Positions 8,555 to 50,280 of a stretch of 64,000 nucleotides of DNA are shown here, one piece after another. The stretch's first letter is position 1. The number at the start of each line of letters is the position of its first letter. The DNA is from Clostridia bacterium (GTDB lineage: Bacteria; Bacillota; Clostridia; Oscillospirales; CAG-272): assembly GCA_017464565.1 (NCBI GenBank), contig JAFTZH010000054.1, positions 1 to 64,000 of the forward strand. The letters run 5' to 3'. The notes beneath the pieces were generated by a model that was given only the letters and a program-made list of their open reading frames with translations, was not told the origin of the DNA and did not search any database. The position numbers were made by a program, and so were the translations under genes.

Positions 8555-9250
8555 ATGATAAGAAAAATAATAAAAATTGATGCGGAAAAATGCAACGGCT
8601 GCGGCGCTTGCGCCGCGGCGTGCCACGAAGGAGCGATAGAAATGATAGACGGAAAGGCAAGGCTTACGCGCGAGGATTATTGCGACGGTCTTGGAGATTG
8701 TCTGCCTGCCTGTCCCACCAACGCCATTACCTTTGAGGAGCGGGAGGCTCCCGCTTACAACGAGGATGCGGTGCGTCAGGCGAAGATGAAAAAATTCGGA
8801 GTCAAGCTTCCGTGCGGTTGTCCGGGAACTCAATCCAAAGCTATCAAGCGAGAAGCGGCGGCGCCCGTCAAGTCTTCGTCGGTATCGAGCCAGCTTATGC
8901 AGTGGCCCTGCCAGATAAAGCTCGTGCCCGTGAATGCTCCGTATTTTGAAAACGCTAATTTACTTATTGCGGCTGATTGTACGGCTTACGCTTACGGAAA
9001 TTTTCACAATGAATTTATCCGTAACCATATTACACTTATAGGCTGTCCGAAGCTTGACGAGGGAGATTACGCCGAAAAGCTGACGCAGATAATTTCTCAA
9101 AACGATATAAAAAGCGTCAAGATAGTGCGTATGGAGGTTCCTTGCTGCGGAGGTATTGAGAATGCTGTGAAGCGGGCTTTGCAGGCAAGCGGTAAGTTCA
9201 TTCCGTGGCAGGTGATTACGATATCCACAGACGGAAGAATAATTGAATAA
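8555..9250 (+). CDS. 4Fe-4S dicluster ferredoxin-domain protein with additional Cys-rich C-terminal domain
   Basis: 231 residues, with AAGGAGG 10 bases before ATG 8555. Residues ~10-60 hold two ferredoxin-type motifs, CNGCGACAAAC and CDGLGDCLPAC with CP, for two [4Fe-4S] clusters; the second departs from CxxC spacing (CxxxxxC). The remaining ~150 residues contain CGCPG, DCTAYAYG, IGCP and VPCCGG, a Cys-rich domain seen in Clostridial proteins annotated only as 4Fe-4S binding. It is a cytoplasmic electron carrier, presumably working with the dehydrogenase before it or the rubredoxin after it. Role in detoxification or redox balance is inferred from the Crp/Fnr neighbour. Confidence 0.88.
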   Translation: MIRKIIKIDAEKCNGCGACAAACHEGAIEMIDGKARLTREDYCDGLGDCLPACPTNAITFEEREAPAYNEDAVRQAKMKKFGVKLPCGCPGTQSKAIKREAAAPVKSSSVSSQLMQWPCQIKLVPVNAPYFENANLLIAADCTAYAYGNFHNEFIRNHITLIGCPKLDEGDYAEKLTQIISQNDIKSVKIVRMEVPCCGGIENAVKRALQASGKFIPWQVITISTDGRIIE

Positions 9251-9406
9251 AAAAGCACTTGTATATGTGTGATATATTTTAAAATTATAATTTTAATAAA
9301 TATAGTAAAACAAACAAACTAATATATATTTTATGTGTTTGATTTTACATAACGCCTTTGGCGTTTGGTAAAAATAATTATTATATTAAAACAAAAGGAG
9401 AAAATT

Positions 9407-9568
9407 ATGAAAAAGTACGTATGCGACATTTGCGGATGGGAGTATGACGAGGAGGCGGGCTCGCCCGAAAACAATATTGCCCCCGGAACCAAATTCGAGG
9501 ATCTTCCCGAGGATTTTGAGTGCCCTCTTTGCGGTGTTGGCAAGGACAATTTCAGCGAAGCTGAATAG
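9407..9568 (+). CDS. Rubredoxin
   Basis: 53 residues, the usual rubredoxin length. The four iron ligands are in CDICGW (residues 6-9) and CPLCGVGK (near residue 39), and the aromatic/acidic core [16 protein letters not shown] and [11 protein letters not shown] is textbook. ATG 9407 follows AAAAGGAG. The protein is a one-electron carrier, commonly used in anaerobes with peroxide or superoxide reductases. The 156 bases before it are very AT-rich and hold a short AACGCC/GGCGTT hairpin, so it may be transcribed separately from the 4Fe-4S gene. Confidence 0.97.
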
Positions 9569-9601
9569 GATAGTTTCTTAAATAAATATTATTTAATTTG
9601 T

Positions 9602-9790
9602 GGGGAGTGCATTTTTGCAAAAAGGCGCTCCCCTAAAGTTTCCCCTTTTCAAAAAACTTTAAACGATATACGAACAGGGGAAAGACGAAGCCTCCCACGG
9701 TGGAAGCAAAACAAAAAATCAAACTAAAACCCAACGTTTAGAGTTTTTGAAGAGGAATTAGGGGAGAAACTTTTGCAAAAGTTTCTCCCC
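9602..9790. repeat. Composite palindromic repeat, copy A
   Basis: 189 bases bounded by two strong palindromes. The left one (9602-9633) is GGGGAGTGC...GCGCTCCCC. The right one (9761-9790) is GGGGAGAAACTTTTG joined to its exact complement. Between them the core has partly inverted arms: TTTTCAAAAAACTTTAAACG on the left and CCAACGTTTAGAGTTTTTGA on the right. Copies lie at 22553-22767, 63661-63850 and, shortened, 40025-40113. It may act as a terminator after rubredoxin, but its size and two-ended symmetry resemble a MITE/REP-type element. Confidence 0.85.
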
Positions 9791-10031
9791 TAATAATCCT
9801 AAAGATAGATATATTTTTTTGAAAATGACTTAAAAATGCAAGAAAGGCAACCAAAAACTGCTCTGCGTATTTGTTTAAATCGGCAAATTGTTTGGCAAAA
9901 AAACGACTTGACAGGGCTAAAAAAGACCGTATTTTGTGCAATACTTATAACTGATATAGTGCAAAATAGTGTATTATCAAGAAAATTCTACTGATAGTGT
10001 AATTTGTCTTGCTTTTTCTCGTGTTTGGTTA

Positions 10032-10061
10032 TTGATTTTTATCTGCGACCAATTGTATAAT
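10032..10061 (+). promoter_or_regulatory. Promoter of the beta-propeller/secreted-protein locus
   Basis: TTGATT (10032-10037), 18-base spacer, TATAAT (10056-10061), leaving a ~95-base leader before ATG 10163. A second candidate, TTGACA-16-TATTTT (9908-9935), lies upstream and is followed by an imperfect inverted repeat, TATTTTGTGCA (9930-9940) against TGCAAAATA (9967-9975), that could be an operator. The rest of 9791-10031 is AT-rich with no gene. Confidence 0.55.
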
Positions 10062-10162
10062 TAAGTGTAACAATATGACTGAATTTTGCAGTGATACTTA
10101 TTTTGATATTGTTAAAATTTATGGTAACAAGTCTCAAAATCGTTAAAACAGGAGGAAACGTG

Positions 10163-12175
10163 ATGAAATCTTTATTTAGAAGAATTGTCGCTTTTGTGCT
10201 CGTTTTGTGCACTCTCGCGCTCGTGGCGTGCGCTAATAACGGCGAAGGCGAAAACGGCGGAACCACCGGAAGCGGCGAAGCCGATAATACGGTATGGATG
10301 AATATAGTTGAAGGAGGACTTTCCGAATATTGTATCGTCGTTCCTTTGGGGCGCACGGAGATATTTACACAGGCGTATAAGCTTGCGACTGCGATAAAGG
10401 GGGCGACGGGAGTTATGCTTCAGGTCAAGCAGGATACCTACGCCGCGCAGGATAAGGAGATACTCGTGGGTATCACATCAAGAGAGGTTGCGGGAGATTA
10501 CGGCGACGATATAGCTACTCCCGACGACTTCGTGGTAGCTGCCGTCGGAAGCAAGGTACTTCTTTACGGTTCTACCGACGACGCGGTTACCGCCGCCGTC
10601 GATTACGTTATATCCGAGTACGTCGATACCGCGAGCGACAGTATTTTCAAAGTTCCCGAGGATATGAAGCACCTCGTTCTTTCAAATAAAGAATATATTA
10701 CGATAACCGACGGAAGCAAGAGCGATTATATAATATCGGTACAAAGCTCTGACGGCGAGGGGGCGCTCAAGCTTCAGTCCGCGATAGAAAAGCTGACGGG
10801 AGCGAAGCTTGCGATATCAACGGGCAACGATGCTTCCGAAAAAGAAATAGTTATAGGCTCCGAACTCAGAACCGAGGCGCTTGCGGTGCAGGAGCTTTGC
10901 ACCTCGGCTTTCGGGGGCAAGATGAAGGCTGTGGGCAAAAAGCTCTTTATCGTGGGAGGCTGTAAGGAAGCGCTTGGCTTTATGGTAGAGCACGTGGCGG
11001 AGAATCTTGGAGCGTATATATTTAAAGGAAATCTTATGATAGCTGTAGGAGACGAGTATTCAAAGACCTTCGGAGACGAGCTTGCCGAGCCGTTCCTCGA
11101 ATCTATAAACTTCAAGCTCTCCGGCGTAAAATACCTCTCCTCGTCCACCGAGGTTTCGAGAGTTTATACTCCCGACGGAACCGAGAGCGCGTGGTATTAT
11201 TCGCACCATCCTTTTATGACCTATTTTAAGGGAACTTACTACATATTCTATTCCTCGTCCAAGCGAAACGAGGACTGTCTCGGACAGAGAATAATGATGG
11301 CTACCTCGACCGACTATAAGAACTGGACGGTAAAGCCTTTGGTTGATTCCATTCAGGGAGAAAATTACCTTGAGACTCTGACCTGCTTCGGCGTATACGT
11401 ATACGAGGGAACGCTTACCGTTTACGTAATGACCTACGAGTACGCATCGATTGAGAAGGAGTCCGACGGTGTAACCGACCGCAGACCTCTTGAGGAGAAC
11501 GCGATAAGACGCAACAGAGAGACCCTTTATCTCCAGACCACAGACGGACAAAATTGGAGCGAGCTTAAGAGCCTCGGCGGCTACTACGGAGGAAACCTCA
11601 GCCCCGTGCGTATGGGCAACCTGCTTATCTGGGCGGGCTACGGCTCACTTTCCTATACCGAGGACCTTTCGGGTACGAGCGGCTGGAAATTCGTAAGACT
11701 CAAGCTTGCCCTCGGAGTTGAGGAGCCAAACGTCATTACCGAGTCGGGACTTTATCAGATGGCTGACGGAACTATCGTTATATTCAGCAGAACCAACGAC
11801 GAAAAGGTTCTCACGGCGGCAAGCTTTGACGGCGGATATACCTGGACGGATATGTACGAGTCTAATTTCAACGATTATTCGGCAAAATTTGAGCTTGGTA
11901 CGCTGCCTGACGGACGGTATTATTTCTTAGGAAACATATCAACGGGCAGAAACGAGCTCGTGCTTATGACCTCGGAGAACGGAGTTGACTTTAATAAGTG
12001 CTATTATCTTGGTAACAGGGCTTATACACAGCAGAAGCAGGGACTTTACAAGGGAGGCGACTACGGTTATCCCACGTCCTACTTTGACGACGAATATATG
12101 TACGTCGTATACTCCTGCGGCAAGGAAGCGGTTGAAACTCTCAGAATAAAGCTCACCGCGATAGAGGTGAAATAA
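10163..12175 (+). CDS. Secreted lipoprotein: tandem N-terminal module plus sialidase/GH43-like beta-propeller
   Basis: 670 residues. ATG 10163 follows AGGAGG with 7-base spacing. A type II signal peptide ends in lipobox LVAC (Cys24), so the protein is tethered outside the membrane. Residues ~45-330 hold two tandem copies of an alpha/beta module (copy 1: YCIVVP...EILVGITSR...VGSKVLLYG; copy 2: DYIISV...EIVIGSELR...GKKLFIVGG), like the N-terminal domains of some family 20/67 glycosidases. Residues ~345-670 form a beta-propeller with WYYSHHPFMTYFKG, NEDCLGQRIMMATS and an Asp-box-like SFDGGYTWTDM. This half is closely related to the next gene and more distantly to 19742-20848. A glycan-binding or hydrolase role is likely, but no catalytic residue can be proven. 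Confidence 0.82.
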   Translation: MKSLFRRIVAFVLVLCTLALVACANNGEGENGGTTGSGEADNTVWMNIVEGGLSEYCIVVPLGRTEIFTQAYKLATAIKGATGVMLQVKQDTYAAQDKEILVGITSREVAGDYGDDIATPDDFVVAAVGSKVLLYGSTDDAVTAAVDYVISEYVDTASDSIFKVPEDMKHLVLSNKEYITITDGSKSDYIISVQSSDGEGALKLQSAIEKLTGAKLAISTGNDASEKEIVIGSELRTEALAVQELCTSAFGGKMKAVGKKLFIVGGCKEALGFMVEHVAENLGAYIFKGNLMIAVGDEYSKTFGDELAEPFLESINFKLSGVKYLSSSTEVSRVYTPDGTESAWYYSHHPFMTYFKGTYYIFYSSSKRNEDCLGQRIMMATSTDYKNWTVKPLVDSIQGENYLETLTCFGVYVYEGTLTVYVMTYEYASIEKESDGVTDRRPLEENAIRRNRETLYLQTTDGQNWSELKSLGGYYGGNLSPVRMGNLLIWAGYGSLSYTEDLSGTSGWKFVRLKLALGVEEPNVITESGLYQMADGTIVIFSRTNDEKVLTAASFDGGYTWTDMYESNFNDYSAKFELGTLPDGRYYFLGNISTGRNELVLMTSENGVDFNKCYYLGNRAYTQQKQGLYKGGDYGYPTSYFDDEYMYVVYSCGKEAVETLRIKLTAIEVK

Positions 12176-46166: not shown

Positions 46167-47414
46167 TTATCCCATTAAAGATACCGCGTGCTCCTCGGAC
46201 AGCTCGATAGAGCCGAGAATGAGCATATAGAGATATATCGTTTCTTTTCTTACGCTTTCTATCGTGTTTTTATCGTTCAGCTTTTCCTTGTGCAGATAGC
46301 CGTTTCTGTATTTTCTTCGCCAATCGGATATCTGCGATTTGAGGTATATGACGACGAATTCCTTATTGTCTCCGAAAACATCTCTGAAAAGATCGAGGTT
46401 TTCCGGTTCGGCAAAGAATTGCTCAAGTGAGCCGAGAGCCTTGTTCAGCGAGTCGTAATTCTCTTCGGCAATAATTTTGTTTTTTAGCTTTCTGCCGTTG
46501 CCGAGCAGGCGGATAACGTCCCAAAGAAGCTGTTCGATAGATTTCAAATACCCCGAAACTATAAAGGTGTTGTCCAAATCCTTCAGGGTGAAGTATTTTT
46601 TATACAGCCATTCCGACGTAATAAAGGATTCGGCAAAGTCGCCGTTTCCGACGAGAAGCTTATACAGCTTCTTATCCCGAAAGCTGTTTAATATTTCACG
46701 AAAAGAGTTATCATCAAGCTCGGCGCCGGCGCAAAGACTTTTTTCGTCTTTGACAGCTGAATAATCGAAGCTTTCAAGCTCCGAAAGAAGATTTTCTCTC
46801 AATATCAGTCTGTTTTTTGAGCTGCATATCTCGGTAATCTGATAACCTATGACCTCGTGCATCTCCTCCCTGAAACCGTTCATTGAGTTTAAAAATTTCA
46901 GCTTTTCCTCATATCCGAAAAGCATTTCGATAAGTTCCTCAAACAGCAGAACTTCTATATTTACCCGAGGGTTGAACTTTTGCGCTCGGAGCGTGAAATT
47001 GCGGAGACTTTCCTGTGCGGCGACGCTGTCTTTCAATAAGAAAACTATCAGCAAAGGCTGTCCCGTTTCTTCCTGCCTGTTCAGATAAGCCTTGAGCTTT
47101 CCCGAATCAAAGCCCGACGGTGAGGTTTTGAAATCCAAGGCGGTAGACCTGCCGTTTATATTTATAGTCATATCGAATAGGTTTTCGATTGATATATTGG
47201 TATTATGAGCCTTGCAGAGATTTACTATCAGCCTATCGACGTTTCGCAGAATAGTCATCTCAAAATTTCTCAATATTTTGATGTATAATTTATCGTTTGT
47301 ACTTTTGATGTCGAATAAAGCTTCGGGCGCGTTTATGCGCTCCCGTACTATCGTCATATCTCTTTCACGCTCAAGCTCGTCAAGGAGCCGTTTCTTGAAC
47401 TCCGCGTATATCAT
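46167..47414 (-). CDS. Unknown protein with PD-(D/E)xK-like and HEPN-like (Rx4H) motifs; candidate defence nuclease
   Basis: 415 residues, solitary, with GAGGAT before ATG 47414 and its own promoter. Residues ~75-165 resemble a restriction-endonuclease core: D81 (NLFDMTI), then ALDFK (D94-F95-K96) giving D...DxK, then strand PLLIVFLL and NIEVLLFEELIEMLFG. Residues ~305-415 resemble a HEPN helical bundle: KSIEQLLWDVIRLLG, then RNGYLH (R370-H375, Rx4H), then a helix ending YMLILGSIEL. HEPN proteins are often RNases in abortive-infection and toxin systems. I do not recognise a named family. It lies in an accessory region with a decayed gene and an ssrA scar. Function is inferred from motifs only. 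Confidence 0.55.
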   Translation of the reverse strand: MIYAEFKKRLLDELERERDMTIVRERINAPEALFDIKSTNDKLYIKILRNFEMTILRNVDRLIVNLCKAHNTNISIENLFDMTININGRSTALDFKTSPSGFDSGKLKAYLNRQEETGQPLLIVFLLKDSVAAQESLRNFTLRAQKFNPRVNIEVLLFEELIEMLFGYEEKLKFLNSMNGFREEMHEVIGYQITEICSSKNRLILRENLLSELESFDYSAVKDEKSLCAGAELDDNSFREILNSFRDKKLYKLLVGNGDFAESFITSEWLYKKYFTLKDLDNTFIVSGYLKSIEQLLWDVIRLLGNGRKLKNKIIAEENYDSLNKALGSLEQFFAEPENLDLFRDVFGDNKEFVVIYLKSQISDWRRKYRNGYLHKEKLNDKNTIESVRKETIYLYMLILGSIELSEEHAVSLMG

Positions 47415-47471: not shown

Positions 47472-47577
47472 TCTTTTTGTTTGGATATGTGTGAAAGTAT
47501 AAAAAGATATTTTCCGTCATTTCGTCATAGAGTTAAACTCTCGCGCTTCTTCACAAATTTTTTATTATCGCTTTGGA

Positions 47578-48137: not shown

Positions 48138-48854
48138 TTATTTTTTCATTTTTTCTTTCGCATATTTTTGCACCTCATCAAGCGCGTGCGCATTCGTTTC
48201 GGTTACGTACCTCTTGAAATCGGCATACACCTTTTTTCCGATTGCTCGGTAGTCCATCGCAAGCACCTTTTCGAGTTTCGTTTTTCGGACATCTTCGGGA
48301 ACACCAAAGAGCATCATAATGGTATCGAGTGCTCCCTCTATTCTATGCTCAACAGATGCGGAATGCTCGGTATTCGACAAGGTAGCGTATTCGATGCCCG
48401 AAATAAGCGCCTCGGCTTCGATGAATTTCTCATCGTCCCAGCCCTCGGTGTACTCGGCGAACACCTGCTTGATTTTCTCCACGTCGTTGGTGCGTATGAG
48501 GTCAAGCGGAATTTGATGAGCGTATGCCGCCACAAAGAAGTCCTGCATTTGCGGTATTTCCTCTCCGACCGCAACCATTGTGGTAAGCTCAAGGCAGTAC
48601 GCGAGAAGTGAGCTTTTTCCCTCGTCCGTTGCGTTTTCCATCTCTCTCCACTGGAAATCGCACATCATTTTCACGATATCCGCAAGAATGTGTTCTTTCG
48701 TGGGGAAATAAAAGGTCAGGTTACCTGTGCTGATATTTGCCTTTTTGCATAGCTCGGTTGCCGTCGTCTTGGAAAATCCGTTCTCAAAGAACAATTCCGA
48801 TGCCGATTTGATGATGATTGCTTTCGTTGGCGTGGGTTTGCGCCTTCCTGCCAA
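48138..48854 (-). CDS. TetR/AcrR-family regulator
   Basis: 238 residues from TTG 48854, which has AAGGGAGGG 6 bases upstream; an earlier TTG (48875) lies before that site. The N-terminal HTH is clear: IIIKSASELFFENGFSKTTATELCKKANISTGNLTFYFPTKEHIL, with recognition helix and the TFYFPTKE turn. The C-terminal ligand domain is generic. Codon use (for example TTC, ATC, GTG, TGC) differs from neighbouring genes, consistent with transfer. Its promoter sits between two near-identical palindromes, so it very likely represses itself. Its target gene downstream is now a pseudogene. Confidence 0.92.
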   Translation of the reverse strand: MAGRRKPTPTKAIIIKSASELFFENGFSKTTATELCKKANISTGNLTFYFPTKEHILADIVKMMCDFQWREMENATDEGKSSLLAYCLELTTMVAVGEEIPQMQDFFVAAYAHQIPLDLIRTNDVEKIKQVFAEYTEGWDDEKFIEAEALISGIEYATLSNTEHSASVEHRIEGALDTIMMLFGVPEDVRKTKLEKVLAMDYRAIGKKVYADFKRYVTETNAHALDEVQKYAKEKMKK

Positions 48855-48900
48855 ATTGATCCCTCCCTTGTTCAAGCATGGATGTTTTTATTACTTTATA

Positions 48901-48997: not shown

Positions 48998-49157
48998 GCA
49001 CAGAGTTTTTTCTGTGCGCGTTTCGTTTTATTCGATTTTGACTCTGACGGGAGTTCGAGTCTATTCAGTATCGGAAAATACCCATTTTTCATCTGCAAAA
49101 TCGAACATAAAATTTCGCCCTCAAAAAGCGAAAATCCCTTGAAAAATCAAGGGATTT
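48998..49157. other. Gene-free stretch with two hairpins between the TetR gene and the ssrA scar
   Basis: GCACAGA/TCTGTGC (48998-49017) is followed on the minus strand by CTTTTTATTTC. AAATCCCTTGA/TCAAGGGATTT (49132-49157) is followed by CGCTTTTTGA. Both look like minus-strand terminators. The second sits just beyond the displaced copy of the ssrA 3' end and may be the original ssrA terminator. No open frame of note is present. Confidence 0.55.
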
Positions 49158-49186
49158 CGGGGAGATATCTTTTTGTCGCCCATTGA

Positions 49187-49206
49187 TGGTGGACCCGAGG
49201 GGAATC
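49187..49206 (-). other. Displaced copy of the ssrA 3' end (attachment-site-like scar)
   Basis: TGGTGGACCCGAGGGGAATC is an exact 20-base direct repeat of the tmRNA 3' end at 49352-49371. The 3' end of ssrA is a common target of integrases, which leave such a duplicate at the far end of the element. Here the copies are only 165 bases apart. Confidence 0.75.
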
Positions 49207-49315
49207 TGAAGCCTCACGTGCGCCCAAATAAGCTTTCATTGAGGTATGATAAGCGCACGTAATTCAAATTGCTTGCAATTTGAGAGGCGTTCGTCTGCAC
49301 GCGAATCTATCAAAA

Positions 49316-49349
49316 AAGCAAAGCACCGTTTGGACGGTGCTTTGCTTTT
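49316..49349 (-). terminator. ssrA terminator
   Basis: AGCAAAGCACCGT, loop TTGG, ACGGTGCTTTGCT with a T-run on either strand. It lies 2 bases beyond the mature tmRNA 3' end. Confidence 0.85.
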
Positions 49350-49351
49350 TT

Positions 49352-49720
49352 TGGTGGACCCGAGGGGAATCGAACCCCTGTCCGAAAACCTCTTGATATG
49401 ACCTTCTCCGAGTGCAGTCTGTTATTTAAAATTCCCCTCAGTCGGCGTCAACAGACAGACTCCAACCTCGGGTAGCCATTTTTTGCGTGATCGGTTCAAT
49501 GGCGAAACACCGATGCACGTTCATCACTTACTTGACGCTCAGTCCCGAGCCGTGATACTCTCGGGAGGAACGGGCGGCTTATGCCGCGGCACTGCACTTA
49601 GGCAGCCAATGCAACGTTATTATCGTTAGCGTTTATTTTTTCGTTTGGACCTTTTAAGAGATTGTCCGGCTCTACTCGCTTATCATACCTCAAAATCCCC
49701 GTCGAAACCTTTACGGGCCC
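49352..49720 (-). ncRNA. ssrA: Transfer-messenger RNA (tmRNA)
   Basis: 369 nt. The 5' end GGGCCCGTAAAGGTTTCGAC and the 3' end GGTTCGATTCCCCTCGGGTC plus CACCA pair as a 7-bp acceptor stem (GGGCCCG/CGGGTCC) and a T-arm. The tag reading frame ends ANDNNVALAA and stops at TAA (49600-49598); the exact resume codon upstream is not certain. tmRNA rescues stalled ribosomes with SmpB, whose gene lies 80 bases upstream on the same strand. No strong promoter is seen directly before it, so it may be cut from a transcript that starts at or before smpB. Confidence 0.96.
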
Positions 49721-49800
49721 ATATTTGAAGTAAAAGGTAATAGTGAAAAGTGAAAAATAATAGGTAATAGGGAAGAGCGAAAAGGCGGTTTGGCGAGGCG

Positions 49801-50280
49801 TTAATCAAAGCGCGACTGCTCCTTCATTCGCCTTTCCATTTCGCGCGACGCTTCCGATTTGGCGGCTGAATCACGCTTGTCGTAAAGCTTCTTTCCTCGG
49901 CAAAGCCCTATCTCTGCCTTGACGTTCTTTCCCGAAAAATAGAGAGAAAGCGGAACGAGCGTATAACCCTTCTGCGCCGTAAGCCCTCCGAGCTTCAAAA
50001 TCTCCTTTTTGTGCATAAGGAGCTTTTTGTCGCGCATAGGGTCTCTGTTGAAAATGTTGCCCTTTTCGTACGGGCTTATTCTCATTCCGACGATAAACAG
50101 CTCTCCGCCGCGAAGTGAGCAGTAGGAATCCTTGAGATTTACCGCTCCCATACGGACGCTTTTTACCTCGGTGCCGTAAAGAGCTATGCCTGCCTCGTAT
50201 TTCTCATCGACGAAATAATCGTGCCAAGCTTTTTTGTTTTGCGCTATTATCTTTTGCGGAGCTTTTTTCGTTTGACTCAC
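49801..50280 (-). CDS. smpB: SsrA-binding protein SmpB
   Basis: 159 residues from GTG 50280 with AAAGGAGG upstream. NKKAWHDYFVDEKYEAGIAL, GTEVKSVRMGAVNLKDSYC and the basic tail KKLYDKRDSAAKSEASREM are family hallmarks. It binds the tRNA-like domain of tmRNA and the 30S decoding site. The ssrA gene follows directly. Confidence 0.98.
   Translation of the reverse strand: MSQTKKAPQKIIAQNKKAWHDYFVDEKYEAGIALYGTEVKSVRMGAVNLKDSYCSLRGGELFIVGMRISPYEKGNIFNRDPMRDKKLLMHKKEILKLGGLTAQKGYTLVPLSLYFSGKNVKAEIGLCRGKKLYDKRDSAAKSEASREMERRMKEQSRFD

Follow-up and report, generated by a model that had tools for sequence, protein, structure and literature searches.

The window analyzed here is a 64,000-nucleotide stretch of a Clostridia bacterium (GCA_017464565.1, contig JAFTZH010000054.1, CAG-272), and the subject is a 165-bp unit at the 3' end of ssrA, its transfer-messenger RNA (tmRNA) gene. 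The intact ssrA neighbours smpB (49801-50280; PF01668). A direct repeat, TGGTGGACCCGAGGGGAATC on the plus strand, occurs at 49187-49206 and 49352-49371, and both copies are exact. The inner copy is the 3' tail of the intact gene and the outer copy lies 165 bp away in the same orientation. The repeat spans exactly positions 57-76 of the tRNA domain, from T-loop position 57 to the CCA. The expected chance of such an exact 20-mer inside 2 kb is about 4e-9, which excludes a chance match and confirms the 20-base repeat of the tmRNA 3' end reported in the original prediction, made from the sequence alone. Folding bears out its further statement that each copy is followed on the minus strand by its own terminator-like hairpin, a long one behind the inner copy (49312-49351) and another behind the outer copy (49158-49131). 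A search for more copies of the 20-mer, which the original prediction proposed as a check, gave no third copy in the window, where the best other match is 13/20. The outer copy directly adjoins, on its minus-strand 3' side, the end (about 145 bp) of a second element, here called R145.

In the tmRNA sense, the unit consists of the tail, a terminator, a degenerate antisense T-arm, a three-way-junction core, the sequence GGCTTCA and the displaced tail (Table 1). Other units show a clear antisense T-arm at the position matching 49289-49311. The 165 bp contain no ORF, and there is no integrase between the two attachment site (att) copies in ssrA. The crossover site is somewhere inside the 20-bp block. 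An internal match like the 17-nt copy in the loop of hairpin 1 was found elsewhere, among the units examined, only in tRNA-Asn units (20 nt direct in genome G010; 12 nt inverted in G029), whose repeats extend to the anticodon arm.

Table 1. Features of the ssrA locus and of the adjoining R145 element (window coordinates).
Feature	Position	Strand	Basis
ssrA, intact tmRNA gene	49352-49720	minus	ARAGORN; Rfam RF00023, 171.6 bits
Displaced tmRNA 3' tail (outer repeat copy, positions 57-76)	49187-49206	minus	sequence
Bidirectional terminator hairpin from the cassette, 18-bp stem, A6...T6	49312-49351		fold and sequence
Degenerate inverted T-arm/acceptor copy GTTCGTCTGCACGCGAATCTATC	49289-49311		comparison with other units; weak here
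Three-way-junction core	49211-49288		fold
Core stem GCCTC/GAGGC	49211-49215/49284-49288		fold
Core hairpin 1 (larger hairpin) ACGTGCGC/GCGCACGT	49216-49223/49253-49260		fold
Core hairpin 2 TCAAATTG/CAATTTGA	49264-49271/49276-49283		fold
17-nt exact inverted copy of tmRNA 5' domain (49677-49693), in hairpin-1 loop	49239-49255	plus	sequence
R145 element end, ending in GGGCGACAAAAAGATAT (minus strand)	49043-49186		recurrence at tRNA CCA ends
TetR-family regulator gene, R145 cargo	48138-48875	minus	Pfam PF00440
Probable far end of R145	47486-47544		resembles the corresponding end of the C51 island (R145/methylase)

The insertion reading for the 165-bp unit is well supported. The intact gene is on one side, the same-orientation 3' fragment is on the other and there are many parallel cases, so the predicted integration at ssrA stands. 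Taken as a whole, it is likely that a discrete non-coding cassette integrated at the ssrA tail, that it belongs to a family of such units and that these are mobilized in trans. Integration took place by recombination within the 20-bp tail. The anatomy and the parallels show that it gave ssrA a new tail and terminator and shifted the old tail and the flanking R145 outward. The ssrA cassette belongs to a large set of hairpin cassettes, 130-300 bp long, that have accumulated downstream of tRNA and tmRNA genes in a family of uncultured gut Clostridia; some lie in tandem and some beside gene-bearing cassettes.

The 3' flanks of the 25 tRNA/tmRNA genes of the source assembly (G000) were scanned. Three further loci carry units of a common layout, at tRNA-Arg(ccg), tRNA-His(gtg) and tRNA-Glu(ttc), the last with two units in tandem. 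The Arg and His cores fold as a three-way junction like that of the ssrA unit, at low sequence identity. Downstream tail copies occur at 11/92 genes of three congeners compared with 6/736 swapped-tail controls (p = 1.3e-7), and at 0/26 genes of G043, a complete genome from another family. In many of about 29 relatives, the ssrA 3' flank contains at least one small unit; several core types are represented, and one flank, in G031, shows a perfect tandem. Others differ in spacing or have no unit. The flanks are thus highly variable, and the duplicate is not the fixed local feature that the original prediction had named as its alternative.

One core type, type A, is a better-sampled cousin of the window unit and was followed across genomes. 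It is found in 19/30 congeners and in 29/146 genomes of the family, representing 17/71 genera (match counts per genome include second-strand matches of the palindromic hairpin). A set of 84,980 species genomes has 65 type-A stretches, all in uncultured Clostridia with record titles mostly of ruminant gut. The core pattern is absent from IMG/VR viral contigs. The ssrA unit and one type-A unit had no match in phage records, and a type-A unit had none in plasmids. In 54 of the 98 distinct type-A copies, the end of the unit is 95-114 bp away from the 3' end of a tRNA or tmRNA gene that lies on the opposite strand, and 14 kinds of gene are represented; the remainder include 14 at contig ends, 6 in tandem and others beside degraded tails. 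An empty site is available for type A at tRNA-Ser(cga), rather than for the window unit, from a comparison of G000 and G001. The old terminator directly behind the gene in G000 is the terminator behind the displaced tail in G001, where the insertion has displaced both. Displaced type-A tails keep their old terminators.

The type-A core is conserved, including the unpaired segments TTCTTGA and TCTTCGGTCACCG, and the arms track the local tRNA sequence. The hairpins have 75 two-sided changes, a number that 0/500 shuffles reach. One- versus two-sided changes number 8 versus 75 in type A and 70 versus 153 in tmRNA stems of the same genomes (p = 6e-5, for cells that are not independent and sequences that are related). 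The dominance of two-sided Watson-Crick changes and the rarity of one-sided G-U type changes suggest pairing at the DNA level or hairpin-templated correction. The hairpins may therefore act as DNA, and copying across them might keep the arms matched to the local tRNA. Behind a tRNA-Ser(tga) gene (G140:C87, 2697-5960), two type-A units about 3 kb apart are identical at 197/205 positions and flank two genes, one for a helix-turn-helix protein and the other for a protein with only a weak leucine-rich-repeat match.

The enzyme, the present-day mobility and the function of the units are inferred. The units have no recombinase of their own and are probably mobilized in trans by a recombinase that targets tRNA genes. 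Three tyrosine recombinases are encoded in G000, none of them beside a unit, and its single large serine recombinase is of a different kind. One of the tyrosine recombinases is in a prophage behind tRNA-Thr(cgt) that runs off the contig end (G000:C1:49400-65021), with integrase, terminase-like and portal-like genes called by eye only. The best-placed candidate mover would be a Ccr/DsiB-like large serine recombinase, and a tyrosine integrase is possible. The Ccr-like family occurs in 53/146 genomes of the bacterial family, and a tRNA-tail-like motif is at the gene end in 16/30 members compared with 2/102 other ORFs. In G024, the R145 copy adjoins such a gene, whose end passes through tRNA-tail-like sequence. 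In G119, a 16-kb island follows ssrA (190213-190584) and has a serine recombinase gene at its end; beyond it come units of types C and A and a copy of the ssrA tail. Ccr/DsiB-like genes likewise adjoin units in G129 and G150. These recombinase islands therefore share arrays and positions with the units in other genera. No tail copy accompanies the serine recombinase islands next to tRNA genes in G001, G008 and G029, so such islands do not all follow the unit grammar. In another genome (G141:C18), an intact tRNA-Ser gene has its 3' end overlapped, in antisense, by the C-terminal codons of a large serine recombinase ORF.

Several results weigh against a trans-mobilized cassette family. There is no tyrosine or serine recombinase near the window unit and no tyrosine recombinase ORF in the type-A flanks examined, and G000 lacks the candidate serine recombinase family at E<=1e-30. 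The sequence shared at the recombinase junctions is about 7 nt (the CCA end), which is shorter than the 20-nt repeat of the units. No sequence homologue of the window core was found, so its class membership rests on layout and fold. All data are from metagenome-assembled genomes with one genome per species; therefore, recent movement was not observed.

The spacing of 165 bp had been predicted to mean a remnant after deletion or a tiny cassette. A remnant would be the scar of a larger, integrase-bearing island at ssrA that was later deleted down to its present size. Prophages and islands that target tRNA genes are present in these genomes, and decay into integrase-less cis-mobilizable elements (CIMEs) is a known route (PMC5704250). 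However, G000 carries units of equal size and fold at further tRNA genes and type A is a single conserved sequence at 14 gene kinds, a result on which random deletions would not converge. The tiny cassette is thus retained and the deletion remnant is quite unlikely. It is very unlikely that the units are structured-RNA genes that are transcribed toward the tRNA gene, share its terminator and end in a tRNA-like T-arm, with their spread incidental. The conserved unpaired segments, strong covariation and bidirectional terminator would fit such genes, but Rfam gives no family at gathering score besides tmRNA and tRNA, and apart from these only chance-level matches at a low threshold. One-sided changes of the G-U type are also rarer than in tmRNA stems, suggesting DNA-level pairing, and insertion would be needed anyway to explain the tail duplication and the empty sites.

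An integron-like system, in which the hairpins would serve as recombination sites in folded single strands and the tRNA end as the anchor of the array, would account for the tandem arrays with the newest unit beside the anchor, the hairpin sites, the gene-bearing members between near-identical units and the Watson-Crick-only covariation. By inspection, however, the junctions lack the attC core GTTRRRY and read GTTCGAA / GCTTCAG. No integron integrase (IntI) was seen, and the G000 tyrosine recombinases are not near units. This explanation is therefore unlikely.

Miniature inverted-repeat transposable elements and BOX-like modular palindromic repeats are small, non-coding, palindromic and multi-copy, as are the present units. 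The units differ in being site-specific at tRNA 3' ends and in duplicating 20 nt of the tail instead of a short target. The ssrA islands of Dehalococcoides combine a Ccr-like serine recombinase, DsiB, with a 20-bp repeat, a junction in the T-loop and accretion in tandem (PMC3146451). However, those islands carry genes even in members without an integration module, whereas the present units are 130-300 bp, non-coding and hairpin-rich and occur behind many tRNA kinds. CIMEs are integrase-less, accreting elements that retain attL and attR and have decayed from integrative and conjugative elements (ICEs) or integrative and mobilizable elements (IMEs) (PMC5704250). The units resemble them in lacking recombination genes, in being bounded by att copies and in accreting in tandem, and the window unit retains its att sites with integration and transfer genes absent. 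In contrast to decayed ICEs/IMEs, the units are recurrent with conserved sequence and fold, and no parent ICE or IME was found. The conserved type-A cores argue against random decay. The intact tRNA gene with a displaced same-orientation 3' fragment is also the layout of genomic islands in tRNA genes, but the units have no integrase and are far under 2 kb. The Islander survey of such islands requires an integrase gene and at least 2 kb (PMC4383910), so elements this small would be missed.

In a literature whose coverage is incomplete, no published account was found of non-coding hairpin cassettes of 130-300 bp that sit at tRNA ends. It is conceivable, though rather doubtful, that they form a novel class of tRNA/tmRNA-end hairpin cassettes that are moved in trans, build integron-like arrays with or without genes and have their arms adapted to the tRNA by hairpin-templated copying. 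Should arrays of tiny cassettes be anchored at tRNA 3' ends in a major gut lineage, this would be a new route of gene capture, in which the tail and terminator of essential RNA genes are replaced repeatedly. The units point to a little-noticed class of miniature mobile DNA in related gut bacteria, and with a conserved core in type A and a candidate serine recombinase at hand, trans-mobilization is readily testable.

The R145 end lies directly at the CCA end of tRNA-Trp in G000 and of tRNA-Ser, -Arg and -Gln in relatives. On contig C51 of G000, the R145 island runs from tRNA-Trp across a DNA methylase gene to an inverted end. This 2.6-kb element (9073-11703) has short inverted ends, GGGCGAYAAAAAAGATAT, rather than a tail copy at its far end, and its sole cargo is a type I-like DNA methylase gene. 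The putative far end in the window aligns to that of C51 with a score of 47, compared with a maximum of 40 in 200 shuffles. On this alignment, R145 in the window probably spans about 47.49-49.19 kb and contains the TetR gene. Of the accessory-looking genes that the original prediction placed on the insertion side, the TetR gene thus appears to be cargo of a second and probably older element rather than of the 165-bp unit. A unit sits between the tRNA/tmRNA gene and R145 both at the window ssrA and at tRNA-Met in G029. Since R145 abuts CCA ends directly elsewhere, yet is separated from ssrA by the unit here, the unit is most simply the younger insertion. A 415-aa protein encoded beside R145 (46167-47414) has no match in Pfam, NCBIfam or PADLOC. 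A short dispersed repeat, GTGAAAAGTGAAAAATAATAGGTAATA, is at 49739-49765 of the window and at other intergenic sites in relatives, genus-wide.
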